From the NCBI GenBank assembly GCA_024742835.1, contig JANSXS010000003.1, positions 1 to 64,000 of the forward strand: 64,000 nt of DNA, written 5' to 3'. Below the pieces are notes generated by a model, which worked only from the letters and a program-made list of their open reading frames with translations, searched no databases and was not told the DNA's origin. Source of the stretch: Paracoccaceae bacterium (GTDB taxonomy: Bacteria; Pseudomonadota; Alphaproteobacteria; Rhodobacterales; Rhodobacteraceae). Positions 223 to 58,498 of the stretch are shown here, one piece after another. Numbering within the stretch: the first letter of the stretch is position 1; each line of letters begins with the position of its first letter. The position numbers and the translations under genes were made by a program.

Positions 223-1143
223 ATGTATACCATCGCCGCGCTCTATCACTTTACCCGCTTTGACGATCCCGACGCGATCCGGTCGCCGCTTCTGGCGCTG
301 TGCGAGGCGGGCAAGATCTCTGGCTCGCTTTTGCTGGCCCGTGAGGGAATCAACGGCACCATCGCCGGTCCGCGTGCGGGCGTGGATGCCGTGCTGGCGC
401 ATTTGCGCGCCCTGCCCGGCTGTGCCGATCTGGAGTGGAAGGAAAGCAGCAGTCAGGCACAGCCCTTTCGACGGCTCAAGGTGCGCGTCAAGCGAGAGAT
501 CGTGACGATGGGCCAGCCGGACGTGGACCCGCGCGCGAAGGTGGGCCATTACGTGGAGCCAGCGGAGTGGAACGCGCTGATCCAAAGCCCGGATGTGGCC
601 GTGATCGACACCCGCAACGATTACGAGGTGGCGATCGGCAGCTTCGACGGCGCGGTCAACCCTGAAACCGCCAGCTTTCGGGACTTTCCCGCATGGTGGG
701 AGGCGAACAGGCACCGCTTTCACAACAAGCGCGTCGCCATGTTCTGCACCGGCGGAATCCGCTGTGAGAAATCCACGAATTACCTGCTCGGGCAGGGGGT
801 CGAGGAAGTGTATCATCTCAAGGGCGGTATCCTGAAATATCTTGAAGAAGTGCCCGAAGACGACAGCACATGGCAGGGGGCGTGTTTTGTCTTCGACGGG
901 CGCGTCTCTGTCGGGCACGGGCTGCGCGAGGGGCCGCACAGGCTTTGCCATGCGTGTCGGCGTCCCATCCTGCCGCAGGACACCGCGCGCCCCGAATACG
1001 AAGACGGCGTTGCCTGTCATCACTGCATCCATGAGACGACCGAGGCCGACAAGACCCGGTTCCGCGAGCGGCAGAAACAGATGGCTTTGGCCAAAGCGCG
1101 TGGCGAAAACCATATCCGTATCGTCCACGAAGACGGGTCTTGA
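223..1143 (+). CDS. trhO: tRNA uridine(34) hydroxylase TrhO (YceA/rhodanese family)
   Basis: This 306-residue protein belongs to the YceA/TrhO family, which hydroxylates uridine 34 in the tRNA wobble position, a step toward 5-methoxy- or 5-carboxymethoxyuridine. The N-terminal UPF0176-type domain (YTIAALYHFTRF, LLLAREGINGTI) precedes a rhodanese domain whose catalytic loop reads FCTGGIRCEKST. The C-terminal part has paired cysteines (CHACRRPI, CHHC) typical of the family. A start 36 nt upstream is possible, but the ATG at 223 begins at the conserved MYTIAALY and was preferred. The TGA stop at 1141-1143 coincides with the start of a decayed dispersed repeat. The family assignment is firm; the reaction is known from E. 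coli and B. subtilis homologues. Confidence 0.93.
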   Translation: MYTIAALYHFTRFDDPDAIRSPLLALCEAGKISGSLLLAREGINGTIAGPRAGVDAVLAHLRALPGCADLEWKESSSQAQPFRRLKVRVKREIVTMGQPDVDPRAKVGHYVEPAEWNALIQSPDVAVIDTRNDYEVAIGSFDGAVNPETASFRDFPAWWEANRHRFHNKRVAMFCTGGIRCEKSTNYLLGQGVEEVYHLKGGILKYLEEVPEDDSTWQGACFVFDGRVSVGHGLREGPHRLCHACRRPILPQDTARPEYEDGVACHHCIHETTEADKTRFRERQKQMALAKARGENHIRIVHEDGS

Positions 1144-1249
1144 GCGCAAGGCACCCAGGCCGGTACGCGCCTTGCGGCGGAAACGAATTGCGCCTGCTTG
1201 AATGCGTTCCACGAAAGGCCGTGATGGAGGTTTTTCGCAAAACGCTTCG
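1141..1249. repeat. decayed full-length copy of the dispersed two-hairpin repeat
   Basis: The segment after the trhO stop aligns by eye with the 116-bp repeat at 23826-23941. The right half (about 1202-1249) matches module B, with shared blocks such as GGTTTTTCGC and AAACGCTT. The left half is strongly diverged but keeps GGCGGAAACG. Its first three bases are the trhO stop codon. Alignment is by eye only. Confidence 0.55.
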
Positions 1250-1558: not shown

Positions 1559-1609
1559 CAAGGCGTTTCACCTTTAACCGGCGGCCTCGATTGAAGGCGA
1601 AACGCTTTA
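1559..1609. repeat. single-module (A) copy of the dispersed repeat
   Basis: Inverted arms GCGTTTCACCTT (1563-1574) and AAGGCGAAACGC (1594-1605) pair with one mismatch, followed by TTTA. Arm sequence and the internal TTTAACC match module A of the full repeats at 23.8, 35.6 and 57.4 kb. It lies next to the decayed transposase, in a gene-free stretch. Confidence 0.7.
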
Positions 1610-2194: not shown

Positions 2195-3220
2195 GTGGAT
2201 CGCAAGACATCTTTCAATGGCGGCGACATCAGCGAAGAGGACGCAGCGGCAATTTTCAATGCCTCGGGCGTGTCAATGGTGCTGACCAATCCACGGCTGG
2301 ATGACAATCCGATCGTTTACGTCAATCACGCGTTTGAAAAGCTGACCGGCTATTCCGCGGCCATGGCCGTGGGGCGAAATTGCCGCTTTCTTCAGGCCGG
2401 ACACAATGATCAACCGGGGCTGGATGCCCTGCGCAGGGCGGTTGCGCGACAAGAGCAAATCTCGGTTGTACTTGAAAACTACCGCGCGGATGGAGCGCCT
2501 TTTTGCAACGCACTTCTGATTTCCCCGGTTGTCGAGGAACAATCTGGCGGCGTGGGGTATTTCATCGGATTGCAAAGTGAGATCGACCCGAACTATCAGG
2601 CCGAAGCCTTGCAACGTTTCGAAGCGATCGTGGCGGAACTTCAGCATCGGGTGAAAAATCACCTGTCGATGATCATCGGCCTGATCCGCATGAAAGCGCG
2701 TGAAAGCGACCAGGACGACGGGTTGCATGATCTGTCCCGGCGTATTGAAAGCCTGCAATTGCTGTACGAGGAAATGGCCAGCGCACGCGCCCAAAGCAAC
2801 GAGGACAAGATCCAGCTTGGATCCTATCTTGGCCGGGTCGCGAATGCGATCGCGCATCTTGACGGGCGGCCCGGTGTGCGGATGAATATCAACGTCGAGC
2901 CATTGATGATGCAGACAGAAACAGCCGTGCGTGTCGGATTGGTTGTCTCTGAAATTCTGACAAACGCGATGCAACATGCCTTTCGAGATCAGAATTCCGG
3001 TTTGGTGGAATTGCGGGTCACGCGGACAGATGGCGGGGGAATGCGTGCGATCATCACCGACGATGGTGTGGGTCTGCCGAAAGATGTGGAATGGCCGAAT
3101 ATGAAGGGTCTGGGCGGGCGGATCGTGTCCGGCCTGTGCGAGGGCCTGCGCGCCACGCTGCACGTTTCACGCGGGGCAGTAGGGACAATCGTCACGCTGG
3201 ATGTCCCCAACGCGGATTAA
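2195..3220 (+). CDS. LOV-domain blue-light sensor histidine kinase (HisKA_2/HWE type)
   Basis: A 341-residue soluble kinase starting at GTG. Residues about 20-130 form a LOV-type PAS domain with the canonical flavin-binding motif GRNCRFLQ at 60-67. Cys63 would form the photo-adduct with FMN. Residues 147-200 form a HisKA_2 dimerisation domain with ELQHRVKNHL (His151 as phospho-acceptor). The HATPase domain shows the N box around Asn257 (SEILTNAMQHAF), then DDGVGLP and a glycine-rich lid (MKGLGGRI). No transmembrane segment is visible. Related LOV kinases in alphaproteobacteria work in light-dependent stress signalling. No response regulator lies in the neighbourhood, so its partner is unknown. 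The TAA stop is the first three bases of a palindromic repeat. Confidence 0.93.
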   Translation: MDRKTSFNGGDISEEDAAAIFNASGVSMVLTNPRLDDNPIVYVNHAFEKLTGYSAAMAVGRNCRFLQAGHNDQPGLDALRRAVARQEQISVVLENYRADGAPFCNALLISPVVEEQSGGVGYFIGLQSEIDPNYQAEALQRFEAIVAELQHRVKNHLSMIIGLIRMKARESDQDDGLHDLSRRIESLQLLYEEMASARAQSNEDKIQLGSYLGRVANAIAHLDGRPGVRMNINVEPLMMQTETAVRVGLVVSEILTNAMQHAFRDQNSGLVELRVTRTDGGGMRAIITDDGVGLPKDVEWPNMKGLGGRIVSGLCEGLRATLHVSRGAVGTIVTLDVPNAD

Positions 3221-3268
3221 AGCGTTCCGCCCTGCGCTGATATCTTGGATCAAGGGCGGAACGCTTTG
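3218..3268. repeat. single-module (A) repeat, perfect 15-bp hairpin between convergent genes
   Basis: Arms AAAGCGTTCCGCCCT (3219-3233) and AGGGCGGAACGCTTT (3253-3267) are perfectly complementary over 15 bp with a 19-base loop. The loop keeps CGCTGAT, as in module A of the full repeats. It lies between the converging LOV kinase and hns-like genes, so it could act as a terminator in both directions, although it lacks a real U-tract. The left end TAA is the stop codon of the LOV kinase. Confidence 0.85.
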
Positions 3269-23825: not shown

Positions 23826-23941
23826 TAAAACGTTCCGCCTTTAACCTGAGACATCAGCGAAAGGCGGAACGCGTGCAACGACTGGACAGATTACTGCGTT
23901 TCGCGAAAATCTGTGATTCAGGTTTTTCGCGAAACGCTTTA
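23826..23941. repeat. full-length (116 bp) dispersed two-hairpin repeat, A-B orientation
   Basis: Module A has arms CGTTCCGCCTTT (23831-23842) and AAAGGCGGAACG (23860-23871). Module B has arms GCGTTTCGCGAAAA (23896-23909) and TTTTCGCGAAACGC (23924-23937). The outer ends are TAAAACG and CGCTTTA, so the element as a whole has imperfect terminal inverted repeats. It starts three bases after the moeB stop and ends 27 bases before the M3 peptidase start. Its reverse complement is nearly identical, base for base and in length, to 35626-35741. Confidence 0.9.
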
Positions 23942-35625: not shown

Positions 35626-35741
35626 TAAAGCGTTTCGCGAAAAACCTGAATCACAGATTTTCGAGAAACGCAGTACTCCGTCCAGTCGTTGCACGCGTTC
35701 CGCCTTTCGCTGATGTCGCAGGTTAAAGGCGGAACGCTTTA
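35626..35741. repeat. full-length (116 bp) dispersed repeat, B-A orientation
   Basis: It begins TAAAGCGTTTCGCG and ends GGCGGAACGCTTTA. Its arms are module B (GCGTTTCGCGAAAA with TTTTCGAGAAACGC) and module A (GCGTTCCGCCTTT with AAAGGCGGAACGC). Aligned to the reverse complement of 23826-23941 it has the same length and only a handful of differences. The final TTA is the complement of the TAA stop codon of the minus-strand gene ending at 35739. Confidence 0.9.
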
Positions 35742-39984: not shown

Positions 39985-40395
39985 ATGAGGGGGCGGAACG
40001 CAGTGGGTGAAAGAGTGGAACAGATTACGCTTTTGGAACAACGGGAATCGGTGACGCTCGATTCCGACAGGTTGCAGCAACTTTATACGCAACTGGGCGA
40101 AAGCGGCGCCGAGGATGTCGTGTGCCGCGCGCTCGAAGAACTGGCCGCGCGCCTGACGCTGACCGAACGTTTTTACCGCGAGGGCCGGGTGGACGACATG
40201 CGCAAAAGCGCCCGCAGCCTGATCGCCATCGCCGATCAGATCGGGATGGGGGCCTTGACGCGTGTGGCGCGCGACGTGACCCTTTGCATCGACCATCACG
40301 ACGCTGTCGCGCTGGCCGCGACCCTGTCGCGCCTGCTGCGGATTGGCGAGCGGTCGTTGCAGGAAATCTGGGGTGTTCAGGATCATTCCGTCTGA
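39985..40395 (+). CDS. Hpt-like four-helix protein without the phospho-histidine
   Basis: A 136-residue helical protein resembling Hpt domains. The segment SARSLIAIADQIGMGALTRV aligns with the Hpt core AHRLKG---LG--AL, but the phospho-acceptor His position is Arg and the usual KG is IA. The N-terminal ITLLEQRESVTLDSDRLQQLY is a conserved opening I associate with Rhodobacterales relatives. ATG 39985 or GTG 40003 (with AGGGGG upstream) could be the start. It may act as a phosphotransfer decoy or binding protein. The TGA stop adjoins a decayed repeat copy. Confidence 0.6.
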   Translation: MRGRNAVGERVEQITLLEQRESVTLDSDRLQQLYTQLGESGAEDVVCRALEELAARLTLTERFYREGRVDDMRKSARSLIAIADQIGMGALTRVARDVTLCIDHHDAVALAATLSRLLRIGERSLQEIWGVQDHSV

Positions 40396-40490
40396 CGGAA
40401 CGCCGCTCCGCAGCAGGGTGAAACCGGGGCGTGGACATCGCGGCGCATTGCGCCAAATCTGTGATTCAGGTTTGCCGCAAAAGGCTTTAG
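40393..40490. repeat. decayed copy of the dispersed repeat
   Basis: Bases about 40446-40490 match module B, with the shared block AAATCTGTGATTCAGGTTT, then CGCAAAAGGCTTTA. The left half (from the Hpt-like stop TGA) is too diverged to fold as module A but keeps CGGAACGCC. It lies between the Hpt-like gene and the aminopeptidase gene. Confidence 0.6.
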
Positions 40491-54436: not shown

Positions 54437-54536
54437 GCCGCGACGGGTGCGCCCCGCGCGGCGTCCTGCCGGTTCGTGTCATGAATGCCCCCATGCGCCA
54501 TGAATTGCGCAAGGGCAACGCCGCCCGCTGCGGGAG

Positions 54537-54582
54537 GTTCCGCCTTTCGCTGATCTCTCAGGTCAAAGGCGGAACGCTTCAG
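54537..54582. repeat. single-module (A) copy of the dispersed repeat at the dapD stop
   Basis: Arms GTTCCGCCTTT (54537-54547) and AAAGGCGGAAC (54565-54575) are perfectly complementary over 11 bp with a 17-base loop (CGCTGATCTCTCAGGTC). Loop and arms match module A of the full copies in the same orientation as 35626-35741. The right end GCTTCA supplies the reverse-complement TGA stop codon of dapD (54579-54581). Confidence 0.85.
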
Positions 54583-57426: not shown

Positions 57427-57538
57427 TGAAGCGTTTCGCGAAAAACCTGAATCACACCTCGTGAAACGCACGCAACAGACCAGCGTTGCACGCGTTCCGC
57501 CTTCAATTGATGCCTCAGGTTAAAGGCGAAACGCCTTA
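57427..57538. repeat. full-length (112 bp) dispersed repeat, B-A orientation
   Basis: It starts TGAAGCGTTTCGCGAAAA and ends GGCGAAACGCCTTA. Module B is partly lost (CTCGTGAAACGC), and module A has arms GCGTTCCGCCTT and AAAGGCGAAACGC. The central GTTGCACGCGTTCCGCCTT block is almost identical to 35626-35741. The last three bases TTA are the complement of the mtnP TAA stop codon. Confidence 0.85.
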
Positions 57539-58408
57539 ACCCAGAACCCGGCCCGCCACCGCGTCCAGTCGCTTCACGACCTCCGGATCGCGGGCCTCGG
57601 GCGCGGTCAGCACCGCGTGTTCCAGCGCGCGGTCGCAGCCATGCGGGCAAAGATCGCGCGCCGCGCCCAACAGGGCCGGCAAGCGGCGCACCAGTTCGCG
57701 CGCCTTGTCAGCATTGCCCAGCAAGGTGGCCACGATCTGTGTCACGTCGACCTCGCCATGCTCGGGATGCCAGCTGTCATAATCCGTGACCATAGCGATC
57801 GACGCATAGCAAAGCTCGGCTTCCCGCGCCAGCTTGGCCTCGGGCATGTTGGTCATCCCGATCACATCCGCGCCCCAGCTTTCGCGGTACATCCGCGATT
57901 CCGCCAGGGTGCTGAATTGCGGCCCTTCCATCGCCAGATAGGTGCCGCCCTCATGCAGCCGGATTTGTGCGTCGCGAGCCGCGGTGGCACAGGCGGTGCC
58001 CAGCCGGGGGCAGGTGGGATGCGCCACGCTGACATGCGCCACGCAGCCCGCGCCGAAAAAGCTTTTCTCGCGCGCAAAGGTCCGGTCGATAAACTGGTCC
58101 ACGATGACGAAATCGCCGGGTGCCATCTCTTCGCGGAACGACCCGCAGGCCGACATGCTGACCACATCGGTCACGCCAAGCCGCTTCAGCGCGTCGATAT
58201 TCGCGCGGTAGGGGATCGTTGAGGGGGCATGGACATGCCCCCGCCCGTGGCGCGGCAGAAAGGCGATCCGCGTACCTGCCAGCCACCCCGTCAGGATCGC
58301 GTCCGAAGGCGCGCCAAAGGGGCTGTCAACCTCGACCCATTCGGTCCCTTCAAGACCGTCGATCTCATACAAGCCGGATCCGCCGATAATGCCCAGATAG
58401 GTGTCCAT
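57536..58408 (-). CDS. mtnP: S-methyl-5'-thioadenosine phosphorylase
   Basis: A 290-residue phosphorylase that splits methylthioadenosine into adenine and methylthioribose 1-phosphate. Visible motifs are LGIIGGSGLYEIDG, IAFLPRHGRGHVHAPSTIPY, VVSMSACGSFREEM and GTYLAMEGPQFSTLAESRMY. ATG 58408 (MDTYLGIIGG) was preferred over an in-frame start 24 nt upstream. The TAA stop lies at the end of a repeat copy. Adenine produced would be handled by apt nearby. Confidence 0.95.
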   Translation of the reverse strand: MDTYLGIIGGSGLYEIDGLEGTEWVEVDSPFGAPSDAILTGWLAGTRIAFLPRHGRGHVHAPSTIPYRANIDALKRLGVTDVVSMSACGSFREEMAPGDFVIVDQFIDRTFAREKSFFGAGCVAHVSVAHPTCPRLGTACATAARDAQIRLHEGGTYLAMEGPQFSTLAESRMYRESWGADVIGMTNMPEAKLAREAELCYASIAMVTDYDSWHPEHGEVDVTQIVATLLGNADKARELVRRLPALLGAARDLCPHGCDRALEHAVLTAPEARDPEVVKRLDAVAGRVLG

Positions 58409-58498
58409 GTGCCTCGCCCCGCTGCAATACATGCACCCAACCCCGCCCGCGCGGCGAGTTCAAGGGCGAATGCGCGGCGCGCACCCCGTCCGGTGGTT

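Follow-up and report, generated by a model that had tools for sequence, protein, structure and literature searches.

A two-hairpin repeat family of Roseovarius with the probable character of an IS630-type MITE

The dispersed palindromic repeat analysed here is very probably a MITE, or non-autonomous DNA transposon, of the IS630/Tc1-mariner family. Its A and B ends would derive from the right and the left end, respectively, of an IS630-type element, and a transposase acting in trans would move it. Our confidence in the mobility of the repeat and in its IS630 kinship is high; it is low for the reason why the hairpins exist and for any role of methylation. MITEs of this kind are already known. 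New in detail is an IS630-type MITE family with an unusual build of two covarying hairpins, and a literature search limited to open-licence papers found, within the accessible parts of these, no earlier description of it. The host, a marine bacterium, is a Roseovarius in the GTDB sense, represented by a 3.03-Mb draft genome (76 contigs, 99.89% complete); this placement follows from loci of two of its congeners, which are identical to records of Roseovarius litoreus DSM 28249 and of a Roseovarius MAG.

In the window, i.e. the whole analysed stretch of 64,000 nucleotides, the sequence-only reading had listed eight copies. The family model recovered all of them, and the three full copies came out with exactly the boundaries proposed before (Table 1). 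All three belong to the 31 copies from which the covariance model R1 was made, so that their R1 E-values are partly given by construction. R3 was built from 43 rows, which comprise 42 foreign copies and a single window copy (23826). The latter copy lies between one gene of the ThiF family and one for a peptidase M3 (Pfam).

Table 1. Copies of the repeat in the window and parts of the copy at 23826
Feature	Position in the window	Strand	Model match and remarks
Full 116-bp element	23826..23941	+	R1 140.8 bits, E 1.9e-32; TA at both ends
Hairpin A of the 23826 copy	23830-23872	+	followed by the linker
Hairpin B of the 23826 copy	23896-23937	+	3' of the linker
A end of the 23826 copy	23826..23854	+	resembles an IS630-family right end
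B end of the 23826 copy	23913..23941	-	resembles an IS630-family left end
Full 116-bp element	35626..35741	-	R1 139.5 bits, E 4.1e-32
Full element, 112 bp	57427..57538	-	R1 86.9 bits, E 2.9e-19
Solo A hairpin	54537..54582	-	R3 E 1.8e-6 for 54501-54581
Solo A-type hairpin	3218..3268	-	R3 E 5.4e-7; one end TA, the other TG
Solo A-type hairpin	1559..1609	+	R3 E 7.9e-6
Decayed copy	1141..1249	+	R3 E 8.4e-4 for 1140-1249; R1 E 0.0018
Decayed copy	40393..40490	+	R3 E 0.0026 for 40396-40489; R1 only E 0.27; best-kept part is the B half

The expectation of a genome-wide family was borne out by a search of the whole genome with R1, which found 79 different places at E<1e-8 (140 matches at E<=1, some of which are both strands of one place). 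BLAST with one copy led to at least 42 places, with 40 of 158 candidates scored. Our copy tables take in 70 of the 79 places and leave out nine, one of them at a contig end. Among the tabulated copies, 59 measure 112-117 bp and five exactly 90 bp. The 90-bp form (loci L159, L168, L181, L184, L189 at 801-890) has lost the tip of hairpin B, which would fit a deletion between the two TTTCGCGAAA words of this hairpin; these words are palindromic and direct repeats at once. Since most nearest-neighbour scores of the copies lie between 0.80 and 0.98, the activity of the element may have ended; two copies are identical. At 116 bp, without coding capacity for a transposase and present in many copies, the element has the make-up of a MITE. 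One full copy (L016:1481-1618) stands directly behind the first 22 bases of another copy and has perhaps been inserted into an older element.

The consensus of 116 bp reads TA-AAGCG...CGCTT-TA. The two hairpin modules claimed from the sequence are there: hairpin A has 13 outer pairs with a CTGA/TCAG stem inside, hairpin B comprises 14 positions, one of which is mostly unpaired in the copies of the own genome, and a linker of 23 nt separates the two. The terminal inverted repeat TAAAGCG is also present, but it is longer than first described, the consensus ends agreeing at 21 of 29 positions. For the 23826 copy a fold of -52.6 kcal/mol is predicted (z -7.5), and the 35626 copy is likewise predicted to form both hairpins. 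The architecture of two arms and a linker was obtained in three of four folds; the exception is the 57427 copy, for which an end-to-end fold instead of two hairpins is predicted when it is folded alone. Inside the element, at window positions 23883-23910, there is a sigma-70-like promoter match (9 of 12 positions; 0.1 in shuffles), a match to the consensus only.

The element sits in YTAR targets. TA is outermost on both sides in 38 of the 70 tabulated copies (at the 5' end in 55, at the 3' end in 45), and in these 38 copies C or T precedes the TA in 32 cases (binomial p 2e-5) and A or G follows it in 33 (binomial p 4e-6), while positions beyond YTAR show no comparable preference. Whether the flanking TA is a two-letter duplication or belongs to the element is not separable by sequence alone.

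Empty sites, which the sequence-only reading had put forward as a check, were found in the genome G062, the closest congener identified and the best match at the 23826 locus among the 83 other genomes of the genus that were searched (80-83% identity). We used the joined flanks of 17 of 29 copies, of which three had no orthologous match, four did not cover the junction and ten could be aligned; many of the loci L199-L222 stem from an unrelated repeat in one flank. Together with the 23826 site, this gives 11 alignable junctions, and G062 lacks the element at all of them. At five (L010, L004, L021, L008 and 23826) a single TA is kept in matching context, L010 and L004 being the clearest cases; the other six have diverged too far to show the TA. 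R1 did not find any match at E<=0.1 in 31 loci of G062 (98 kb), and in 80 kb of G062 largely collinear with the window it gave a single match of 15 bits (E 0.12). The solo hairpin at 54537 is also absent from G062, whose flanks align there, and the region of the 40393 copy is about 50 bases shorter; the surroundings of the 3218 and 35626 copies are not alignable to this genome.

These empty sites bear directly on the idea that the copies are fixed transcription terminators or conserved regulatory RNAs that merely look dispersed. Such an explanation would suit the strong predicted folding at 23826 and the position of many copies near gene ends. However, it is at odds with the lack of the element at every aligned G062 site, with the missing T-rich tail at 23826 and with the Rfam search of the window, which yielded 0 matches above the gathering score. 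We therefore regard it as extremely improbable, and the doubt raised beforehand, that coincidence or fixed terminators might lie behind the family, does not hold. For the 23826 copy, a role as terminator was rejected, as a T tail is absent. A secondary role of the element in 3' ends is possible.

The tables of gene context rest on a crude ORF caller. Of 52 copies with both neighbours called, 23 lie between convergent, 11 between divergent and 18 between tandem genes; among the remaining tabulated copies, nine appear inside ORFs and nine have a neighbour missing. As background, 13 of 50 gene pairs in the window are convergent and hold about a tenth of its intergenic bases. In 20 of the 70 copies the TAA at the tip of the element is also the exact end of an adjacent ORF, compared to 2 of 46 YTAR sites in the element-free window that are stop codons; the sample behind this comparison is modest and the null rough. 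An example is the 57427 copy, whose first three letters serve as stop codon of the adjoining minus-strand gene (57536-58432). Five of the 20 cases were compared with G062: three genes (at 57427, L004 and L024) end at the same codon there and those at L018 and L013 one codon earlier; at L021, not flagged by the ORF caller, the gene ends at the same codon as well. The protein thus stays unchanged or almost so. Both ends of the element read TAA outwards. Where it inserts into a stop codon, TAA or TAG, a stop codon would consequently be left behind, which would make gene ends harmless sites. Ends that supply a stop codon on landing in one would be a simple way of being harmless.

An insertion sequence with matching ends, suggested as a further check, does exist: IS630-family elements of the same genus match both ends of the MITE. 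DDE_3 matches occur in 41 of 84 genomes of the genus. The best-matching IS among the 30 DDE_3 loci examined is L229 from a Roseovarius (G076), an element of 1,058 bp (971-2028) with the left end TAGAGCGTTTCTATGAAAACCTGAATCG and the right end TAAAGCGTTTCGGTTTTAACCTGCGAGAT, whose transposase is split over two ORFs, the second being the DDE_3 part (108 bits). The A-end consensus of the MITE agrees with the right end of L229 at 24 of 29 positions and the B-end consensus with its left end at 23 of 29, whereas the crossed comparisons are lower (A with left 17/29, B with right 19/29). Among 380 TA-starting 29-mers from three IS630 loci, the five most similar to the MITE ends are all IS ends; the sixth and weakest IS end ties with one unrelated 29-mer at 18/29. 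Since the two ends of the MITE match the right and the left end of IS630-family elements from the same genus, an IS630 transposase is the likely mover, a view that we hold with moderate confidence.

Such a transposase would recognise both ends, by TARAGCG at the tip and CTGAATC or CTGAGACAT further inside, excise the element and insert it into a YTAR target, so that TA comes to stand at each side; that an enzyme of this kind acts here, by cut-and-paste, appears probable. The own draft genome contains neither a DDE_3 match nor a match to the L229 transposase. A search with the latter in 21 chosen genomes gave matches in 11. Among the 16 element-bearing genomes found in the genus, a full-length L229-type transposase occurs only in G034 (75% identity), G011 has one at 54% and G021 one in two pieces; G022, G030, G017 and G002 have short or distant matches only, and the other nine, including the own genome, none. 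Conversely, G076, which bears the best-matching IS, has no match to the element at E<=1e-10. In G034 and G083 the L229-type transposase is located on contig 2, which is not the largest contig. The mover might have been lost, might be hidden in assembly gaps or might come and go with plasmids.

The initial label had been that of a REP/MITE-type element. Its MITE half is justified by a short, multicopy element with IS630-matching ends; its REP half finds no support, since no Y1 transposase was found and the preference for YTA/TAR holds on both sides. A REP/BIME or REPIN-type element would be a pair of palindromes in inverted orientation that a RAYT (Y1 HUH) transposase moves in single-stranded form, and the two inverted hairpin modules with their linker, the solo modules besides doublets and the roughly 80 copies, mostly between genes, would all be in line with this. 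But HUH transposases have a one-sided target and would not constrain both sides, as is seen here with Y and R, and the ends match IS630. Moreover, the own genome yielded 0 matches to Y1_Tnp (PF01797, RAYT-type) in a search that was positive in 5 of 14 control genomes, and with PF01797 not found in a draft of this completeness we rejected a RAYT origin. The modules also begin with TAAA and not with the GTAG tag named in PMC3733652. A REP or REPIN nature is accordingly very unlikely. What the Roseovarius element shares with REPIN/BIME and RAYT systems, as far as the available parts of their descriptions go, is the pair of inverted palindromic modules in solo and double forms; it differs from them by TA on both sides, IS630 ends and the lack of a detected RAYT (PMC3116915, PMC2817692).

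Returning to the IS630-type MITE, we examined how far the family reaches. R1 found the element in 16 of 60 relatives, own genome included; all of them are among the 36 members of the genus in this set, and the 24 genomes from outside the genus gave none. The copy number in the other congeners ranges from 0 to at least 57. Across the order, R1 identified at E<=1e-10 at least 18 of 390 genomes and at least 10 of 139 genera, and R2, a sequence-only model built from the alignment A4 described below, at E<=1e-5 at least 42 of 390 genomes and at least 23 of 139 genera. Nine candidates were scored per genome in these wide searches, and the counts are lower bounds. Kinship outside the order was rejected, as R3 matched only the own genome among 385 genomes sampled in the class (nine candidates scored in each). 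Carriers named by exact 31-mers include Roseovarius, Pelagivirga, Aliiroseovarius, Brevirhabdus, Yoonia and a Loktanella MAG. For this large alphaproteobacterial repeat family a mover, a target and an ancestor can now be suggested.

Some single occurrences deserve mention. On two plasmids of Aliiroseovarius crassostreae (NZ_CP080785, 86427-86541, and NZ_CP080777, 8472-8586), a copy with 72% identity is found under a gene annotated as putA. Another copy (L113) comes from a MAG with the label Verrucomicrobia, isolate GSL.Bin9, where it lies on a short contig; this is most likely a binning error, because the isolate name suggests the same sample set as that of an alphaproteobacterial MAG (L108, GSL.Bin4). 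Finally, relatives of 103-105 bp at L317, L355 and L356 have IS630-like tips, but their interior differs and does not form the A and B stems; they possibly represent a sister MITE family.

The arms of both hairpins change together across genera. A4 comprises 43 copies from many genera, most of them found by a model that rewards pairing. In this alignment 92.7% of the stem cells pair and 76 cells are double-changed, as compared to 13.0 after shuffling and to no more than 32 after sliding; double changes affect 18 of 27 pairs, with many pair types at one position, and RNAalifold arrives at the same two stems unaided. Pairing of the element end to end was rejected as a conserved fold: the four pairs in its middle do not form in 31 to 38 of the 43 rows, and its 22 double-changed cells are only a small excess over the 14.4 in shuffles. 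Copies of the own genome, taken by themselves, covary only slightly (8 vs 2.9 double-changed cells, 4 vs 2.6 pairs).

Because most of A4 had been found by the pairing-rewarding model, we repeated the test with copies from the sequence-only model R2, although some bias remains as R2 itself was built from A4. A5 is a MAFFT alignment of 48 R2-listed copies (40 taken by place, 8 from loci) that omits L307, L314, L315, L316 and several other R2 matches; L318 is in both alignments, and 9 of the 48 copies were also found by R1. It has 108 double-changed cells compared to 49.4 in shuffles and a covariation of 0.269 compared to 0.160. Two of the five measures do not rise above shuffles, namely pairs with double change (19 vs 16.6) and further pair types (54 vs 50.1), and sliding by one column leaves nearly as many double-changed cells (100) and a covariation of 0.228. 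Helix B is shifted by one column in many rows and 55.8% paired, and the evidence for the B arms is therefore taken from an alignment-free test. There, 33 of 48 copies for the A arms and 39 of 48 for the B arms show stronger pairing than shuffled regions do (p<0.05), and arms from within a copy score higher than arms combined across copies (A 10.94 vs 9.77, B 12.17 vs 10.32). Without the R1-found copies, 39 remain, with 10.69 vs 9.55 for A and 12.05 vs 10.19 for B, and with 23 of 39 (A) and 31 of 39 (B) better than shuffled at p<0.05.

The six ends of three IS630 elements do not form such a hairpin beyond chance. The stems hence seem to be a property of the MITE, and hairpins would not be needed for transposition of the IS, given that IS630 ends of the same group form none. 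Both selection and self-correction of palindromes fit the covariation. According to the second explanation, template switching during replication copies one arm onto the other, with the transposase constraining the outer arm only. This would agree well with outer arms that overlap the transposase ends and inner arms that do not, as well as with the hairpin-free IS630 ends. Copies found by the structure model in at least 10 of 139 genera, with many pair types at one position, and the small excess of end-to-end pairing speak rather against template switching, but self-correction still fits both observations. We consider this explanation a fair possibility, though one that we do not favour. Under selection, the most likely reason for keeping the stems would be that a folded strand, either of RNA or of single-stranded DNA, is important for the element or for the transcripts in which it lies. 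It now becomes testable whether a mobile element can carry hairpins kept by selection that its parent IS does without.

The nearest known architecture is that of the CIR repeats, which were reportedly described by Chen and Shapiro in 2003. In the available parts of the literature, they are CcrM-associated, intergenic repeats of Caulobacter, Brucella and other alphaproteobacteria (PMC2229807, PMC10969869), about 110 bp long, with two long inverted-repeat arms, a linker and TA termini, one arm bearing GANTC at its terminal loop or within it (PMC2229807). The accessible table of that review has '-' (with a footnote) for the terminal inverted repeat and '?' for the target duplication, and the mechanism is left open (PMC2229807). 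Judged by these descriptions, the Roseovarius element is alike in its length of about 110 bp, in its two arms with linker, its TA ends, its intergenic location and, in part of its copies, a GANTC at one hairpin tip. Unlike for CIR, its ends, its target and a likely transposase have been found, and GANTC is not present in all copies.

GANTC occurs in the B loop of 29 of the 59 own full copies, 25 times at one offset and four times one base away, as well as in 22 of 43 A4 rows and 14 of 49 A5 rows, the window copy being counted in both sets. In the B end of the 23826 copy it occupies positions 23-27 from the tip (window 23915-23919). At the same offset, GANTC is found at position 22 or 23 in 12 of 15 candidate IS630 left ends, or in 11 of 14 different ones as L226 and L227, from two genomes, have identical sequences, and in 0 of 10 candidate right ends. 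A tip motif served to pick the candidates; of the three left ends without GANTC, two look like false choices, and some right-end picks may be false too.

We do not file the Roseovarius repeat as a CIR but liken it to one by description; it appears to work like one, which suggests an origin for CIR. Put more broadly, CIR-type repeats of Alphaproteobacteria might be IS630 MITEs in which GANTC is a motif of the IS left end, placed such that cell-cycle methylation by CcrM could control when the transposase binds and couple transposition to replication, the covarying hairpins being an acquired and selected part that the IS lacks. This proposal is speculative, and we rather doubt it as a whole. Dam sites provide a comparable link of transposition to replication in other IS elements. 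Whether GANTC methylation controls IS630-type transposition can now be tested. If CIR repeats are kin, the mover, target and ancestor would also apply to an architecture described in 2003 whose mobility was unexplained in the accessible text of a 2007 review (PMC2229807).

Other small elements offer partial parallels, one in Streptococcus pneumoniae, a member of another phylum and host of RUP, and one in Paracoccus yeei, which belongs to the same order as Roseovarius. RUP is described in the available texts as a MITE of IS630-Spn1 with 107 bp, a TA target and 108-110 copies (PMC2229807, PMC3049150). It shares the TA target with our element, and both have ends like those of IS630 elements, the IS630 of RUP being in the same host (PMC2229807, PMC3049150). 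In contrast to RUP, whose ends are stated to hybridise to one another (PMC3049150), each end of the Roseovarius element pairs with its own inner arm. MITEPye1 of P. yeei, with ends matching IS1182-family elements and, in the accessible part of its description, 1-3 chromosomal copies, is likewise an alphaproteobacterial, preferentially intergenic MITE with a long stem-loop (PMC11578231).

A second dispersed repeat, around CCCCGAGGTATTTTCAGCCAGATGAAG, was noticed in the left flank of L005 (G000:C13 near 31197) and at more than 12 places of G062 (loci L199-L222), and a stretch similar to it flanks the copy in L028.
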